Shown here: piece by piece, positions 29,299-34,772 of the stretch
How the letters are laid out: every line of letters begins with the position of its first letter
Position numbering within the stretch: the first letter of the stretch is position 1
Source of the DNA: Rhodobacter sp. TJ_12
GTDB taxonomy: Bacteria > Pseudomonadota > Alphaproteobacteria > Rhodobacterales > Rhodobacteraceae
Length of the DNA stretch: 64,000 nt
NCBI RefSeq assembly: GCF_020023995.1
Contig: NZ_NRRD01000014.1
Location: 1-64,000 of the forward strand
Reading direction: 5' to 3'
Notes under the pieces: generated by a model
Database searches by the model: none
What the model saw: only the letters and a program-made list of their open reading frames with translations
What the model was told of the DNA's origin: nothing
Position numbers and translations under genes: made by a program

Positions 29299-29859
29299 TT
29301 AGACCCCGCGTGCCAGCGCGGCCACACCCGTGCGCGCCACATCCACAAGCCCCAAGGGGCGCATCAATTCGGCAAAAGCATCGATCTTGTCCGAGGTGCC
29401 GGTGATCTCGAAGACAAAGCTTTCCAGCGTGCTATCGACCACATTGGCGCGGAAGATATCGGCCAGACGCAGCGCTTCGACGCGTTTTTCGCCGGTGCCT
29501 GCCACTTTGAACAGCGCCAATTCGCGTTCCACCGCCGTCGCTTCGGTGGTGAGGTCATGCACCTCATGCACCGGCACGATGCGGCCCAGTTGCGCGCGGA
29601 TCTGTTCGATCACCGCCTCGGTGCCGCGGGTGACAATGGTGATGCGGCTGGTGTGGCCCTTGTGGTCGATCTCGGCCACGGTCAGGCTGTCGATGTTATA
29701 GCCGCGCCCCGAAAAGAGCCCGATCACCCGCGCCAGAACGCCGGGTTCGTTTTCAACAATCACCGCCAGCGTGTGGCTGCGCTCGACCTCCGAGTGGAAA
29801 TCGCGCAGGTCATAGGCGGAGTGGCTCGACGAGCCTTTCTTGATGTTCAGAGCGGCCAT
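29299..29859 (-). CDS. ilvN: Acetolactate synthase small (regulatory) subunit
   Basis: Regulatory subunit that binds valine and raises activity of the catalytic IlvB subunit in branched-chain amino acid synthesis. The 186 residues hold an ACT domain (about 28-105, HTLAVIVENEPGVLARVIGLFSGRGYNIDSL) and a C-terminal domain ending near FAELMRPLGLVDVARTGVAAL. The name ilvH is also used for this family. The ATG at 29859 follows GGGAGAGGG. It lies 77 bases after ilvB, with a GC hairpin between, and is the last gene before the terminator at 29248. Confidence 0.95.
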   Translation of the reverse strand: MAALNIKKGSSSHSAYDLRDFHSEVERSHTLAVIVENEPGVLARVIGLFSGRGYNIDSLTVAEIDHKGHTSRITIVTRGTEAVIEQIRAQLGRIVPVHEVHDLTTEATAVERELALFKVAGTGEKRVEALRLADIFRANVVDSTLESFVFEITGTSDKIDAFAELMRPLGLVDVARTGVAALARGV

Positions 29860-29907
29860 ATGCCCTCTCCCTTCCGAATGTCTTTCATCTTGCCGGACAG
29901 TTTCCGG

Positions 29908-29932
29908 GGTCCGGGGGCGGGGCCCCCGGGCC
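29908..29932 (-). other. GC-rich hairpin between ilvB and ilvN
   Basis: GGTCCGGGGGC (29908-29918) and GCCCCCGGGCC (29922-29932) form an eleven-position stem with one mismatch in the transcript strand. It has no T-run, so it may be a processing or stability element that separates the two messages. Confidence 0.5.
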
Positions 29933-29936
29933 ACTC

Positions 29937-31682
29937 TCACACCAGCGCGGCGCCGCCGCGGAAGGCTTCGGCATCGGCCGAAAGCAGCATATCATTATGC
30001 GGCTTGCCCGACGGGATCATCGGGAAGCAGTTTTCGTGCTTTTCGACCAAGCAATCGAACAGAACCGGGCCATCATACTCGATCATCTCCATGATCGCGT
30101 CATCCAGCTCTTTCGGGTCGCTGACCACAATGCCCTTCCAGCCGAAGCTTTCGGCCAGCTTCACGAAATCGGGCAGGCTTTCCGACCAGCTTTGCGAATA
30201 GCGCCCGCCGTGCAGAAGGTCTTGCCATTGCCGCACCATGCCCAGCCGTTCGTTGTTCAAGATGAACTGTTTGACGGGCGCGCGGAACTGCGTCGCGGTG
30301 CCCATTTCTTGCATGTTCATCAGCCACGAGGCTTCGCCCGCAATGTTGATCACCAGCGCGTCGGGATGGGCGACCTGCACCCCGATCGAGGCCGGGAAGC
30401 CGTAGCCCATCGTGCCAAGCCCGCCCGAGGTCATCCAGCGGTTCGGCGCCTCAAAGCCCAGGAATTGCGCCGCCCACATCTGGTGCTGGCCCACCTCGGT
30501 GGTGATGTAGCGGTCGCGGCCCTTGGTCAATTCTTCAAGCCGTTGCAGCGCATATTGCGGCTTAATGATCGTGTCGGAATTGGTGTAGCTCAGGCAGCGC
30601 ACCTTCTTCCATTCGTCGATCTTGCTCCACCATTTGCCAAGGCCCTCTTTGTTGGTCTTGCGCCCACGCGCCTTCCAGACCTTCAGCAGGTCTTCAAGCA
30701 CATGGCCGATATCGCCCAAGATCGGCAGATCGACCTGAATGATCTTGTTGATCGACGAGGCGTCGATATCGACATGCGCCTTCACCGAATTGGGGCTGAA
30801 ATCGGCCACGCGCCCGGTGATGCGGTCGTCAAACCGCGCGCCAAGGTTGATCATCAGATCGCAATCATGCATCGCGAGGTTGGCTTCATAAAGCCCGTGC
30901 ATCCCCAGCATGCCCAGCCAGTTCTTGCCCGAGGCCGGATAGGCGCCAAGCCCCATCAGCGTCGAGGTGATCGGGAAGCCCGTTGCATCCACCAGTTCGC
31001 GCAAAAGCTGGCTGGCCGCACTGCCCGAGTTGATGACCCCGCCGCCGGTGTAGAAGATCGGGCGCTCGGCCGTTTCCATCATCTCGACAAGCTTGGTGAT
31101 GGCGTCGAGATCGCCTTTCACCTTGGGGCGGTAATGTTCGGTGCGCGCGGTTTTCGGCCCGGTATATTCGGCCGAGGCGAATTGCACATCCTTGGGCAGG
31201 TCGATCAGCACCGGTCCGGGGCGGCCCGAGGTGGCGACATGGAAGGCCTGGTGGATCGTTTCCGACAGTTTCGACGGGTCTTTCACCAGCCAGTTATGCT
31301 TGGTGCAGGCGCGGGTGATGCCCACGGTATCGGCCTCTTGGAAGCCATCGGTGCCAATCATGAAGGTCGGCACCTGACCCGAAAACACCACCAAGGGAAT
31401 GCTGTCCATCAGCGCATCGGTGAGCCCCGTCACCGCATTCGTCGCGCCAGGGCCAGAGGTCACCAGCACGCAGCCCGGCTTGCCGGTCGAGCGGGCATAG
31501 CCCTCGGCCATATGCACGGCGGCCTGTTCGTGGCGCACAAGGATATGCTTGATGTCGTTTTGCTGAAAGATCGCGTCATAGATCGGCAATACCGCGCCGC
31601 CGGGGTAGCCGAAGATCGTATCGACCCCCTGATCCTTGAGCGCCTGCACCACCATTTCTGCGCCGGTCATCTGCCGCGACAT
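29937..31682 (-). CDS. ilvB: Acetolactate synthase large (catalytic) subunit
   Basis: Thiamine-diphosphate enzyme that makes acetolactate or acetohydroxybutyrate, the first common step to valine, leucine and isoleucine. The 581 residues show the three ThDP-enzyme domains: IFGYPGGAVLPIYDA with the catalytic Glu in RHEQAAVHMAEGYAR, the central FAD domain, and the GGLGTMGYGFPASIG...GEASWLMNMQE cofactor region. The cofactor motif here reads GEASWLMN where GDGSFQMN-like sequences are more common. AAAGGACG precedes the ATG at 31682. Upstream is a leader peptide and terminator, so the ilvBN operon is probably controlled by attenuation. Confidence 0.96.
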   Translation of the reverse strand: MSRQMTGAEMVVQALKDQGVDTIFGYPGGAVLPIYDAIFQQNDIKHILVRHEQAAVHMAEGYARSTGKPGCVLVTSGPGATNAVTGLTDALMDSIPLVVFSGQVPTFMIGTDGFQEADTVGITRACTKHNWLVKDPSKLSETIHQAFHVATSGRPGPVLIDLPKDVQFASAEYTGPKTARTEHYRPKVKGDLDAITKLVEMMETAERPIFYTGGGVINSGSAASQLLRELVDATGFPITSTLMGLGAYPASGKNWLGMLGMHGLYEANLAMHDCDLMINLGARFDDRITGRVADFSPNSVKAHVDIDASSINKIIQVDLPILGDIGHVLEDLLKVWKARGRKTNKEGLGKWWSKIDEWKKVRCLSYTNSDTIIKPQYALQRLEELTKGRDRYITTEVGQHQMWAAQFLGFEAPNRWMTSGGLGTMGYGFPASIGVQVAHPDALVINIAGEASWLMNMQEMGTATQFRAPVKQFILNNERLGMVRQWQDLLHGGRYSQSWSESLPDFVKLAESFGWKGIVVSDPKELDDAIMEMIEYDGPVLFDCLVEKHENCFPMIPSGKPHNDMLLSADAEAFRGGAALV

Positions 31683-31774
31683 CTTTCACGTCCTTTCCCG
31701 GGGCCTGCGCCCCCGACCTTCCGGGGCTTTCGCCCCCGCTTCGACAGGGCAAGCGCCCCAACCCGTTTCACAAC

Positions 31775-31802
31775 AAAAAGCCCCCGCGTGATCGGCGAGG
31801 GC
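31775..31802 (-). terminator. ilvBN attenuator terminator
   Basis: On the minus strand GCCCTCGC (31802-31795) pairs with GCGGGGGC (31787-31780) over eight positions with one G-U, followed by TTTTT (31779-31775). It stands between the leader peptide and ilvB, 93 bases before the ilvB start. GCGCATGGG (31843-31835) and CCCATGCGC (31809-31801) form a competing nine-pair stem that takes away the base of the terminator. Confidence 0.75.
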
Positions 31803-31827
31803 GCATGGGAACCAATATGGTCAACCG

Positions 31828-31875
31828 TTACCGGCCCATGCGCGCTTTCCCTACCAGAACGACAAGCGAGATCAT
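31828..31875 (-). CDS. ilvL: ilvBN leader peptide, 15 residues
   Basis: The short frame encodes MISLVVLVGKARMGR. Residues 2-8 contain six branched-chain amino acids (Ile, Leu, Val, Val, Leu, Val) interrupted only by one Ser. The ATG at 31875 has AAAAGG seven bases upstream; two in-frame ATGs (31896, 31908) lack such a site. The stop at 31828 lies 26 bases before the terminator stem. This is the classical architecture of a leader peptide whose ribosome stalls when Ile, Leu or Val are short. The competing stem 31801-31843 starts just beyond the region a ribosome stalled on the Val/Leu codons would cover. Confidence 0.75.
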   Translation of the reverse strand: MISLVVLVGKARMGR

Positions 31876-31944
31876 CGCCGCACCTTTTCGTTGCATTCGG
31901 GCGGACATTAGGGGCAGGCCGATGGGGCGTCAACGGCAAAACGC

Positions 31945-32000: not shown

Positions 32001-32338
32001 GGGCGTGACATTTTCGCAAGTCTTCCGGGGGCAAAAAGGGCCGGACTCGTCTTAATTTGCACGCGGCGGGCTGTGGTGGGCCATTGGGCGAGTCGCGGGC
32101 CTTGAAACGCTGCGTTTGCGCTTCCTTTCAGCGCCAAAATCCCTATCGTAACCGCGACCATGGGGCGGCAAAGCGGCCGCAACGGGCGCTGCGGGGCCGG
32201 GTTAGGACAAAAGTAACGGTGGATTGGTCAGGAATTCGGACCGGATTGGCCCGAGTTCCTTGATTTTCCTGTTCACACCCGGCAAGGAACACCGAAGCCT
32301 CGCAAGGGGCCGTGGGAGCATTGAAAGGGGAGGAGACG
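32001..32338. other. Non-coding stretch between ilv control region and dctQ
   Basis: About 340 bases that should hold the dctQ promoter and leader. I see no convincing gene, RNA or repeat. Frames here are short and lack ribosome sites. Confidence 0.5.
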
Positions 32339-32911
32339 ATGGGCGCTTTGCTGGCTCTGTCACGGGCCGTCGACCGCATCAACGAGGTCATCGGCAGATC
32401 GGTGTCCTGGCTCATTCTGGTGGCGGTGCTGGTGTCCGCCACCAATGCCATTGTGCGTAAGGTGTTCAACACCTCGTCGAACGCCTGGCTTGAGGCACAA
32501 TGGTATCTGTTCGGGGGCGCCTTCTTGCTGGCCGCCGCTTATACGCTCAAGCAAAACGAGCATATCCGCATCGATATCGTTTATGGCGCCTTTTCGCGCC
32601 GGGTGCAGCATTGGATTGACCTGTTCGGCCATGTCTTCTTCTTGATGCCGTTCCTGACGCTGATGCTGTGGATGCTGTTTCCCTATGTGATGATGTCGGT
32701 GAAATCGGGCGAGGTTTCGACCAATGCGGGCGGGCTGATCATTTGGCCGGCGAAATCGCTGTTGCTGATCGGTTTTACGCTGCTCTTTGCGCAAGGGATT
32801 TCCGAAATCATCAAGAAAATCGCGATCATGCGCGGGCTGATCGAAGACCCGCATACCTATAGCGGGCACCACGGCACCGCCGAGGTGATTGCCGAGAAAG
32901 AGGGGCTTTAA
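32339..32911 (+). CDS. dctQ: TRAP transporter small permease subunit
   Basis: A 190-residue inner-membrane protein with four hydrophobic helices, the DctQ fold. The pattern VSATNAIVRKVFNTSSNAWLEAQWYLFGGAFLLAAAYTLKQNEHIRIDI is typical of the TRAP-2 mannitol/chloroaromatic-type permeases. It pairs with DctM to take up an organic acid with sodium. GGGAGGAG precedes the ATG at 32339. The stop is one base before the dctM start region, so the two are co-translated. No periplasmic binding protein gene (dctP) is adjacent. Confidence 0.92.
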   Translation: MGALLALSRAVDRINEVIGRSVSWLILVAVLVSATNAIVRKVFNTSSNAWLEAQWYLFGGAFLLAAAYTLKQNEHIRIDIVYGAFSRRVQHWIDLFGHVFFLMPFLTLMLWMLFPYVMMSVKSGEVSTNAGGLIIWPAKSLLLIGFTLLFAQGISEIIKKIAIMRGLIEDPHTYSGHHGTAEVIAEKEGL

Positions 32912-32912
32912 G

Positions 32913-34772
32913 ATGCTGCTCGAACTCATTGCCACGAACATGGCGCCGATCATGTTCGTTTCGCTGATCGTGTTTTTGCTGCTGGGCTATCCGGTGGCGT
33001 TTTCGCTGGCCGCGAACGGGCTGGTTTTCTTCATCATCGGGGTGGAGCTTGCGCCGCTGTCGGGCGGTTCGATCAACCTCAGCTGGCCGCTTTTGAATGC
33101 GATGCCGGAACGGTTTTGGGGCGTCTTAAGCAACGAGACATTGCTGGCCATTCCGTTCTTCACTTTCATGGGGATCGTGCTGGAAAAATCCGGCATGGCC
33201 GAAGACCTGCTGGATACGATCGGGCAGTTGTTCGGCCCGGTGCGCGGCGGTTTGGCCTATGCGGTGGTAATCGTGGGCGCGCTGTTGGCGGCGACCACGG
33301 GCGTCGTTGCGGCCTCGGTGATCGCGATGGGGCTGATTTCGCTGCCGATCATGTTGCGCTACGGCTATGACCGGCGCATCGCCTCGGGGGTGATTGCGGC
33401 CTCGGGCACGCTGGCCCAGATCATCCCGCCCTCGATCGTTCTGATCGTGCTGGCCGACCAATTGGGCCGCTCGGTGGGCGATATGTATAAAGGCGCGCTG
33501 ATCCCGGGCCTTGTGCTGACCGGCATCTATCTTGGCTATGTTGCGGTGATGTCGATCATCCGCCCGCATTCGATGCCCGCCCTGCCGAAAGAGGCGCGCA
33601 CGCTTGGTTCGGGCGTGATGTCGCTTTTTGTGGTGCTGGCCATCGGTCTGGTGACGTATTACCTCGCCTTCCAATGGCTGCATGATCCGGGCGCGCGCAA
33701 TTCCAATGCGGGCATTCTGGCCTCGGGTCTGGCGGTGGTGGTGATTTATCTCATCGCGCTGATCGACAAATCCACCGGCTTGAACCGCATGAGCCGTTTG
33801 GCGCAGCAGGTGGTGATCGTGCTGATCCCGCCGCTGGCGCTGATCTTCCTTGTGCTTGGCACTATCTTCCTTGGCGTCGCAACGCCGACCGAGGGGGGCG
33901 CGATGGGCGCGGTGGGCTCGCTGATCTTGTCGGGCGTCAAGAAGCGGCTCAACCTGACCGTGGTGCGCGAGGCGCTGGCGGCCACCACGCGGCTGTCGTC
34001 TTTCGTGATGTTCATTCTGCTGGGGGCGCGGGTGTTCTCGCTCACCTTCTACGGGGTGAACGGGCATCTGTGGGTCGAGCATCTGCTGGTGTCGCTGCCG
34101 GGCGGCGAGATGGGCTTCTTGATCGTTGTCTCGCTCTTGGTGTTCTTCCTCGCCTTCTTCCTCGATTTCTTCGAACTAGCCTTCATCATCGTGCCGCTTT
34201 TGGCGCCCGCCGCGGAAACGATGGGGATCGACCTGATCTGGTTCGGGGTGATCTTGGGGGTGAACATGCAGACCTCGTTCATGCACCCGCCCTTTGGCTT
34301 TGCGCTGTTCTTCTTGCGGTCCGTGGCGCCCAAGGTGCCCTATGCCGACAAGGTGACCGGGCTGATGACCGAGCCGGTGAAAACCTCGCATATTTATTGG
34401 GGGGCGGTGCCGTTCGTCTTCATCCAGATCGTGATGATCGCCATTGTGATCACTTTCCCGCAGATGGTGATGCATTACAAAGGCAAGCCGGTCGATGTCA
34501 GCAATGTCGAAATCACCCTGCCCAGCATGCCCGGGCTTGGGGGCGGCCTTGATGGCGGGCTTGGGGCGCCCGGCGGCATGGGGCTGCCGCCGCTCGGCGC
34601 GCCCCGGGCCGCACCGGGCGGTGGGCTGAGCCTTGGCGCGCCGTCCCTTGGTGGTCCGCCTCCGGGTCTTGGGGCGCCCTCGGGCAGCCCGCAAGAGCCG
34701 CCGCAGGGCGGTGGGGCGAGCCTTGGCATCCCCGCGCCGATGGGATTGGGCGGTGCCCCGATCGGGAACTAA
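32913..34772 (+). CDS. dctM: TRAP transporter large permease subunit with Gly/Pro tail
   Basis: The 619-residue protein has the DctM fold with 12 or more helices in residues 1-525. These include LLGYPVAFSLAANGLVFFIIG, TTGVVAASVIAMGLISLPIM, ASGTLAQIIPPSIVLIVL and VLGVNMQTSFMHPPFGFALFF-type segments. After the last helix (about residue 525) comes a low-complexity tail of about 95 residues made mainly of Gly, Pro, Leu, Ala and Ser. This is unusual for a permease, and the tail should lie in the cytoplasm or periplasm without a fold. The ATG at 32913 begins one base after the dctQ stop. Confidence 0.92.
   Translation: MLLELIATNMAPIMFVSLIVFLLLGYPVAFSLAANGLVFFIIGVELAPLSGGSINLSWPLLNAMPERFWGVLSNETLLAIPFFTFMGIVLEKSGMAEDLLDTIGQLFGPVRGGLAYAVVIVGALLAATTGVVAASVIAMGLISLPIMLRYGYDRRIASGVIAASGTLAQIIPPSIVLIVLADQLGRSVGDMYKGALIPGLVLTGIYLGYVAVMSIIRPHSMPALPKEARTLGSGVMSLFVVLAIGLVTYYLAFQWLHDPGARNSNAGILASGLAVVVIYLIALIDKSTGLNRMSRLAQQVVIVLIPPLALIFLVLGTIFLGVATPTEGGAMGAVGSLILSGVKKRLNLTVVREALAATTRLSSFVMFILLGARVFSLTFYGVNGHLWVEHLLVSLPGGEMGFLIVVSLLVFFLAFFLDFFELAFIIVPLLAPAAETMGIDLIWFGVILGVNMQTSFMHPPFGFALFFLRSVAPKVPYADKVTGLMTEPVKTSHIYWGAVPFVFIQIVMIAIVITFPQMVMHYKGKPVDVSNVEITLPSMPGLGGGLDGGLGAPGGMGLPPLGAPRAAPGGGLSLGAPSLGGPPPGLGAPSGSPQEPPQGGGASLGIPAPMGLGGAPIGN

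Follow-up and report, generated by a model that had tools for sequence, protein, structure and literature searches.

The ilvBN operon in the window (the whole stretch of Rhodobacter DNA analysed here, 64 kb long) is preceded by a leader that is, with high probability, a ribosome-mediated transcription attenuator; this is by far the best reading of the region. The first-pass annotation had proposed that a leader peptide and a terminator attenuate ilvBN, and the proposal is supported by conservation of the leader, by its run of isoleucine, leucine and valine (I/L/V) codons, by the rare codons within that run and by two bases able to pair in two ways. The parts of the leader, their conservation, the rare codons and the dual pairing are all directly visible in the window and its relatives.

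Attenuators of branched-chain operons are a familiar class. The enterobacterial ilvBN and ilvGMEDA attenuators combine an Ile/Leu/Val-rich peptide with a terminator, and they have longer peptides and more alternative helices. The window leader belongs to the same pathway and shares the Ile/Leu/Val-rich peptide and the terminator, but differs in being built of two helices with a two-base overlap, in having its stop codon in a GNRA loop and in that no protecting helix was found.

The suggestion that the element had not been annotated holds for this locus but not for its kind. In its accessible text, PMC1273637 (2005) counts an ilvB leader peptide among previously described alphaproteobacterial elements, citing Vitreschak et al. 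2004, and that of PMC4117421 (2014) presents the Caulobacter ilv operon as attenuated by way of a leader that carries Ile and Val codons, which it credits to Tarleton, Malakooti and Ely 1994. Compared by description, Caulobacter crescentus ilvBN/ilvIH is likewise an alphaproteobacterial acetolactate synthase operon with a short leader, tandem Ile/Val codons and a rho-independent terminator; the likeness to the ilvB leader peptide of Vitreschak 2004, also alphaproteobacterial, is drawn through PMC1273637 only. The accessible parts of other papers describe a cysS leader of Rhodobacterales and, from Leptospira, an ilvB motif of a different type (PMC8632094), and the ilvBNC attenuator of Corynebacterium glutamicum (PMC11857589), which by description is a leader attenuation in the same pathway, non-alphaproteobacterial and with a three-hairpin model. 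The kind of attenuator is already known, and we make no claim that its structure is new.

Layout of the ilvBN leader

The identities of ilvB and ilvN are firm (Table 1). The ilvN frame overlaps the end of ilvB, and the real ilvN start is probably an internal ATG near 29859. Leader peptide, stem and terminator all lie on the minus strand, a detail missing from the first-pass annotation, and the T5 run is separated by 92 bases from the start of ilvB. The first-pass annotation had described a 15-codon frame with six branched-chain residues in seven positions, a ribosome site in front of it, a stem with TTTTT shortly before ilvB, and a nine-base pairing that would compete with the terminator through two shared bases. 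Every one of these parts was found: I/L/V residues occupy six of residues 2-8 of MISLVVLVGKARMGR, the ribosome site is purine-rich, and the two arms GCGCATGGG and CCCATGCGC are perfectly complementary and form a 9-bp stem, here named P1, whose overlap with the terminator is exactly two bases.

Table 1. Coordinates of the ilvBN genes and of the leader features in the window
Feature	Coordinates	Strand	Basis and details
ilvB, acetolactate synthase large subunit	29937..31682	-	TIGR00118, 765.8 bits (cut-off 538.35)
ilvN, acetolactate synthase small subunit	29299..29940	-	TIGR00119, 176.4 bits (cut-off 56.9)
Predicted promoter, sigma-70-like	31905..31933	-	Sequence; TTGACG 31933-31928, 17-nt spacer, TAATGT 31910-31905
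Putative ribosome-binding site, purine-rich AAAAGG	31888-31883	-	7 nt 5' of ATG; AGnGG in alignment consensus
Leader frame MISLVVLVGKARMGR, 15 codons	31875-31828	-	ATG at 31875, TAA 31830-31828; conserved in 71 leaders
Control codons 2-8	31852..31872	-	Ile Ser Leu Val Val Leu Val; final Val is the rare GTA
P1 5' arm, GCGCATGGG, candidate antiterminator	31843-31835	-	Sequence, alignment; in leader frame (codons 11-14)
Hairpin P2, CCG-GUAA-CGG	31825..31834	-	71-leader alignment; GNRA tetraloop with stop codon inside
P1 3' arm, CCCATGCGC	31809-31801	-	Sequence, alignment
Bases common to P1 and terminator	31802, 31801	-	Exactly two; pair either way in 71/71 leaders
Intrinsic terminator, 8-bp stem + T5	31802-31775	-	Sequence, 71-leader alignment; 31802-31795 with 31787-31780 (GCCCTCGC, 7-nt loop, GCGGGGGC); T5 31779-31775

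Short frames with at least six I/L/V residues in seven codons occur three times on the plus strand and three times on the minus strand of the window. A strong hairpin with T5 follows within 110 nt in three cases, all on the minus strand, and these three frames are start-codon variants of the leader frame. Among the 71 aligned leaders described below, a TTGAC box with at least three of six matches to the -10 element at a spacing of 16-18 was found within 90 nt upstream in 69, a count that has no shuffled control.

Two GC-rich hairpins, GGGGGCGAAAGCCCC and GGGGGCGCAGGCCCC, lie at 31685-31745 between the terminator and ilvB, near the ilvB ribosome site. On the other side of the leader, at 32312-34772 on the plus strand, is a divergent gene pair that by eye resembles the small and large permease genes of a TRAP transporter, the large one ending in a long Gly/Pro-rich tail.

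Conservation and codon use

The relatives of ilvB came from the best 80 of 595 named matches, a set that leans to near relatives (Rhodobacteraceae and kin). A canonical leader stands before the gene in 70 of these 80, which together with the window gives 71 leaders, selected by a pattern that takes in the greater part of both P1 arms; an earlier pattern, any inverted repeat around ATGG, was found in 68 of the 81 upstream regions. The alignment of the 71 (A1) includes two loci of the same assembly (L036 and L040) and leaves out ten regions. One is cut by a contig end and retains the 3' part of the leader (L055, 45.9 bits). Three have a diverged leader with a terminator (L021, L048 and L081), and no leader was seen upstream of ilvB in six of the 80 close relatives, namely five Paracoccus loci (L041, L052, L061, L062 and L067) and L071. 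To judge from these upstream regions, the five Paracoccus loci likely reflect a lineage-specific loss of attenuation. The variant leaders at L021 (2786-2904) and L048 (2800-2924), MSVVLISSGDRTGSA and MRFVLISSGGLNGSV, have the stem sequence replaced and the terminator kept, with the stop codon still within a hairpin loop; in their lowest-energy folds the stem does not overlap the terminator.

A covariance model built from the 71 ilvB leaders (R1) matched 166 of 198 genomes of the window's family, in 165 of 197 genera. The gene directly 3' of the best match was ilvB in all 49 genomes whose neighbours were checked (of the 166, the window's own included). Four genomes of the family have a second R1 match, located before ilvB in G346, before a transporter gene of the MFS group in G407 and before neither in G420 and G447; the G346 assembly has two ilvB genes (L162 and L166), each with its own leader. 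By eye, a distant ilvB (L083, 1300-1700) has an apparently different leader, MSLLIVPCAPNEGLA, with a terminator, and a weak match to the Rfam family RF02502 overlaps this site.

The alignment shows a frame kept as a frame. Start codons, assigned by a rule of our own devising, are ATG in 60 leaders, GTG in 10 and TTG in one, and the length is 15 codons in 59 of the 71. The stop is TAA in 46, TGA in 24 and TAG in one; a UAG stop would break the GNRA loop of P2. The mean number of I/L/V residues per seven codons is 4.87 in the leader frame, compared with 1.10 and 0.34 in the other two frames. The first-pass annotation had looked to homologues for a conserved run of these codons and a terminator: at least four of seven codons are I/L/V in 70 of the 71 leaders, and the terminator is present in all 71.

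The control codons are also rare ones. Valine is encoded by GTA at 98 of 178 positions (55%) in the leaders and at 3.7% in ilvB of the same loci, and leucine by CTA at 30 of 118 (25%) and 1.2%, respectively. Judged by these frequencies, such codons suit an amino-acid-sensing leader. Further constraint is seen at codon 11, which lies outside the pattern used to select the leaders: its third base is G in 71 of 71 while it encodes 11 different residues. It is Trp or Met, which leave no choice, in 35 leaders, and the other 36 had a synonymous choice. The wobble position of codon 10 is unconstrained (A 21, C 20, T 18, G 12), while codon 12, inside the selection pattern, is CGC in 67 of 71 and codon 15 is CGG in 67 of 71. 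With codon 11 fixed and codon 10 free, the RNA-level constraint therefore extends exactly as far as the outermost pair of P1, and one of the bases in this pair is among the two common to P1 and the terminator.

That the frame arose by chance, the hairpin being merely a terminator or a stable element of the 5' untranslated region, can be set aside with near certainty. The energy of the whole-leader fold is unremarkable, 1.3 sd better than shuffles (z about -1.3), as such an origin would allow, but the conservation and the codon statistics stand against it; because the leader is conserved among relatives, a chance origin is untenable.

Pairing, folding and the proposed switch

Co-variation, which the first-pass annotation had suggested looking for, was found in part. 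At the seven aligned terminator pairs, pairing is intact in 100% of cells; three of these pairs are doubly changed, and the T run is present in all 71 leaders. P2 pairs in 200 of 213 cells, compared with 64 and 75 when the pairing is slid by one base; its tetraloop is GTAA or GTGA in 66 of 71, and one pair is doubly changed, in three sequences, with AU, UA and GC replacements. P1, on the contrary, has changes on both sides at none of its nine pairs, a constancy that is partly built in because most of both arms formed part of the pattern used for selection. The two shared bases are able to pair both ways in every leader. All five pairing measures exceed those of 500 of 500 shuffles and of the slid versions, with the exception of one covariation score at slide -1.

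In the RNAalifold consensus of the 71 leaders the terminator takes both shared bases and stands complete alongside a 7-bp P1; P2 is absent from this fold, which contains no conserved helix that masks P1. In the trp leader, a protecting helix (1:2) gives termination when there is no translation, an optional feature that does not define all attenuators; no helix of this type was seen in the consensus fold. A hairpin ACCAT...TGGT after P2, visible in the window and some relatives and by eye unpaired in others, is not claimed, and a short frame opening at the AUG in the 3' arm of P1 was dismissed on visual inspection, because loop lengths vary.

A riboswitch that senses a metabolite or ppGpp, or a leader that binds a protein, is very improbable. 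Either would accommodate the highly conserved P1 arms CGCATGGG and CCCATGCGCC (conserved in part because the leaders were selected on them) and the variant L021, which retains CCCCATGCGCC although its usual pairing partner is absent. No riboswitch family appears, however, among the Rfam 15 matches of the window leader up to E 5, where hits to DUF805b and a frameshift site were taken as chance, and the conserved start, frame, length, stop and I/L/V codons count against both.

In the folding of the window, the ribosome was taken to protect the RNA as far as 15 bases beyond the first P-site base. The basal pairs of the terminator have a probability of 0.01-0.02 without a ribosome. Placing the A site at V5 brings it below 0.01, at V6 to about 0.5, and at V8 or the stop codon to at least 0.997. 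Folding with and without a ribosome, as the first-pass annotation had envisaged for codons 5-8, thus bears out the switch for a stall at V5, where the terminator base stays open, but not for one at V6, which leaves it about half formed, or at V8, where termination is complete. Across the 71 leaders the basal pair has a mean probability of 0.36 without a ribosome (above 0.5 in 25 of 71). When the A site is placed on codons 4-7 the mean is 0.60-0.79, with values above 0.5 in between 46 and 66 of the 71, and it rises to about 1.0 from codon 8 or 9 onward, depending on the footprint assumed. The computed folds shift in the direction expected of an antiterminator, with a modest amplitude and partial exclusion at equilibrium. 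The nine-base pairing put forward as the switch is backed by the dual pairing in all 71 leaders and by the direction of the window folds, but the exclusion is only partial across the set; full exclusion of the terminator by P1 is weakened, since in most leaders the stem leaves the terminator formed at equilibrium.

From these parts we infer the following course; translation of the leader, the stall, what the two-base overlap does and how amino acids act are all proposed steps in it. RNA polymerase would initiate near 31900 and a ribosome would load onto the leader. With charged Val, Leu and Ile tRNAs plentiful, the ribosome would reach the stop codon and lie over the P1 5' arm and P2; P1 would be blocked, the full terminator would form, including the two basal G-C pairs beside the U-run, and ilvBN would be off. 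With one of these tRNAs short, the ribosome would stall around codons 4-7 and P1 would form with the GNRA hairpin on top, capturing 31802 and 31801 from the terminator base, so that the terminator would be set apart from the U-run and polymerase would read through. As no conserved helix masking P1 was seen, we predict that a leader left untranslated would give read-through, the reverse of the trp leader.

During intrinsic termination, the pairs at the terminator foot form last, against the RNA-DNA hybrid. For this reason the two-base overlap may be effective beyond the equilibrium estimate, and we infer that a helix already holding the two foot bases would outweigh the equilibrium expectation. 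Attenuation could also operate with P1 as a pause or timing hairpin, read-through then coming from the stalled ribosome and an uncoupled polymerase and not from exclusion between base pairs. The weak exclusion at equilibrium, the consensus fold that holds a 7-bp P1 and the full terminator together, and the missing stem-terminator overlap in L021, L048 and six leaders of the RF02502 type (below) all favour this version. It is nevertheless unlikely, if the least so of the alternatives, given the dual pairing in 71 of 71 canonical ilvB leaders, the wobble constraint at the overlap and the shift of the folds in the antiterminator direction.

Related leaders before a transporter gene

Searched across the class, R1 had matches with E no higher than 0.01 in 16 of 289 genomes. 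Nine of the matches are below 1e-6; four are ilvB leaders of the window's family, and five stand in other families before a gene for an MFS transporter. A sixth leader of the latter kind matched at 4e-4, giving a range of 2.8e-15 to 4e-4 for the six, and six weaker matches have neither ilvB nor an MFS gene. The transporter belongs to the Bcr/CflA family (TIGR00710, 216.8 bits for L150 and 212.3 for L113, cut-off 200.9). A second covariance model, R2, was built from the six MFS leaders alone; it recovers the window leader at 7.2e-16 and, at E up to 1e-6, has matches in 158 of 198 genomes of the window's family. Either model thus picks up the set of leaders that was left out of its construction.

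Class-wide (385 genomes), R2 gave 16 matches better than 1e-7. Five are genomes of the window's family, all with the leader before ilvB, and 11 fall in ten other alphaproteobacterial families, all before MFS genes, six of them being the sources of R2. The MFS genes behind these 11 leaders (L150, L151, L152, L153, L154, L156, L173, L176, L177, L178 and L179; leader near 1501-1625) include that of L150, and the others share 52-57% identity with it. The leader peptides are mostly Val-rich, such as MNPKSVVVVVSRRCMVR, MHILIVVVGERRLDR and MTVTTVVVGAWRLDR, with L154 and L156 weak. G407, of the window's own family, has its second R1 match (2.4e-6) ahead of an MFS gene with 55% identity, in addition to the ilvB leader, and the peptide there (L221) is MSFLNVVVSVRCVVR. 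Matches weaker than 1e-5 with neither ilvB nor an MFS gene nearby (L155 and L157-L161 for R1, L180-L184 for R2) were taken as noise.

Upstream of ilvB in the 12 genomes with MFS leaders, we found only one weak R1 match (L186, E 0.02), one insignificant R2 match (L187, 0.4) and no short frame with at least five of seven I/L/V codons. Six of these regions have a short frame with four of seven, and four have a T5 run; a different, unrelated leader may precede ilvB in these genomes. The window's own genome encodes a 39% identical transporter, with no leader seen upstream.

These transporter leaders lead to a known RNA family. RF02502 (Atu_C8, labelled 'Rhizobiales sRNA') matches the window leader over the whole element (model positions 1-122, E 0.0038) with 25.9 bits, below its gathering score of 50 bits. 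Its arms GCGCAUGGGC and CCCAUGCGC are those of the window leader and its start is similar, but its strong matches differ from the window leader in standing before an MFS transporter and in having a stem that does not overlap the terminator. The gathering score was reached in one of 289 class genomes. At E 1 the class-wide search returned 80 of 289 genomes, mostly noise, and also 5 of 14 control genomes; from it we used only L082, L083 and L084, the matches whose genomic context was inspected. Strong matches were found in 6 of 36 genomes of one family (L082, L112, L113, L114, L115 and L116), all before the same MFS transporter, which is 46-50% identical to that of L150, and with peptides like MNGLLTIVVVGRRMGEAA and MQVSVVVGRRMGKAA. 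In these six leaders about 8 nt separate a P1-like stem from the terminator downstream of it, with no overlap, and the match to our models is weak (R1, E 0.0025-0.078; R2, 2e-6 to 0.011, with L116 missed). Because of the missing overlap and the weak matches, either the switch would differ or P1 would have another role in these leaders, which are evidence against a single mechanism for the whole set. Our literature search, thin in subscription journals, returned no relevant paper on Atu_C8 or 'sRNA C8'. We cannot say that the MFS transporter leader is unreported; the accessible text of PMC10117765 mentions translated small frames of Sinorhizobium, some of which fall within predicted operons for transporters, one being an MFS transporter.

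The presence of a homologous cassette before an efflux-family transporter elsewhere bears on what the leader senses. Together with the expectation that, with no conserved protecting helix, loss of translation should cause read-through, it would fit a leader that responds to general slowing or inhibition of translation (by antibiotics or cold) and not to branched-chain amino acids specifically. We regard this as improbable for ilvBN, since the I/L/V run (at least four of seven codons) is kept in 70 of 71 leaders with rare Val and Leu codons enriched, and the controlled gene makes branched-chain amino acids. The sensing of branched-chain aminoacyl-tRNA by the ilvBN leader remains our preferred reading. 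Whether the element is a portable branched-chain, and above all valine, attenuator cassette, placed before ilvBN in the window's family and before a Bcr/CflA-type MFS transporter elsewhere, with the strong Atu_C8 matches being terminated transporter leaders, is in our judgement evenly balanced.

The attenuator of ilvBN is real, conserved, ordinary in kind and economical in structure. The ilvB switch is expected biology, now backed by comparison instead of a single sequence. Its two-base overlap beside the U-run offers a sharp test of the minimal overlap for a transcription switch, and the stop codon inside the GNRA hairpin makes this a locus where the effect of that placement can be tested. 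The transporter leaders are a lead worth following, and the Rfam sRNA family Atu_C8 could possibly be re-annotated as an attenuator leader. The common cassette is a functional clue to a drug-efflux-like transporter. If the cassette is indeed portable, the transporter would be induced when branched-chain aminoacyl-tRNA runs short, and it might transport a branched-chain metabolite or pump out natural acetolactate synthase inhibitors.
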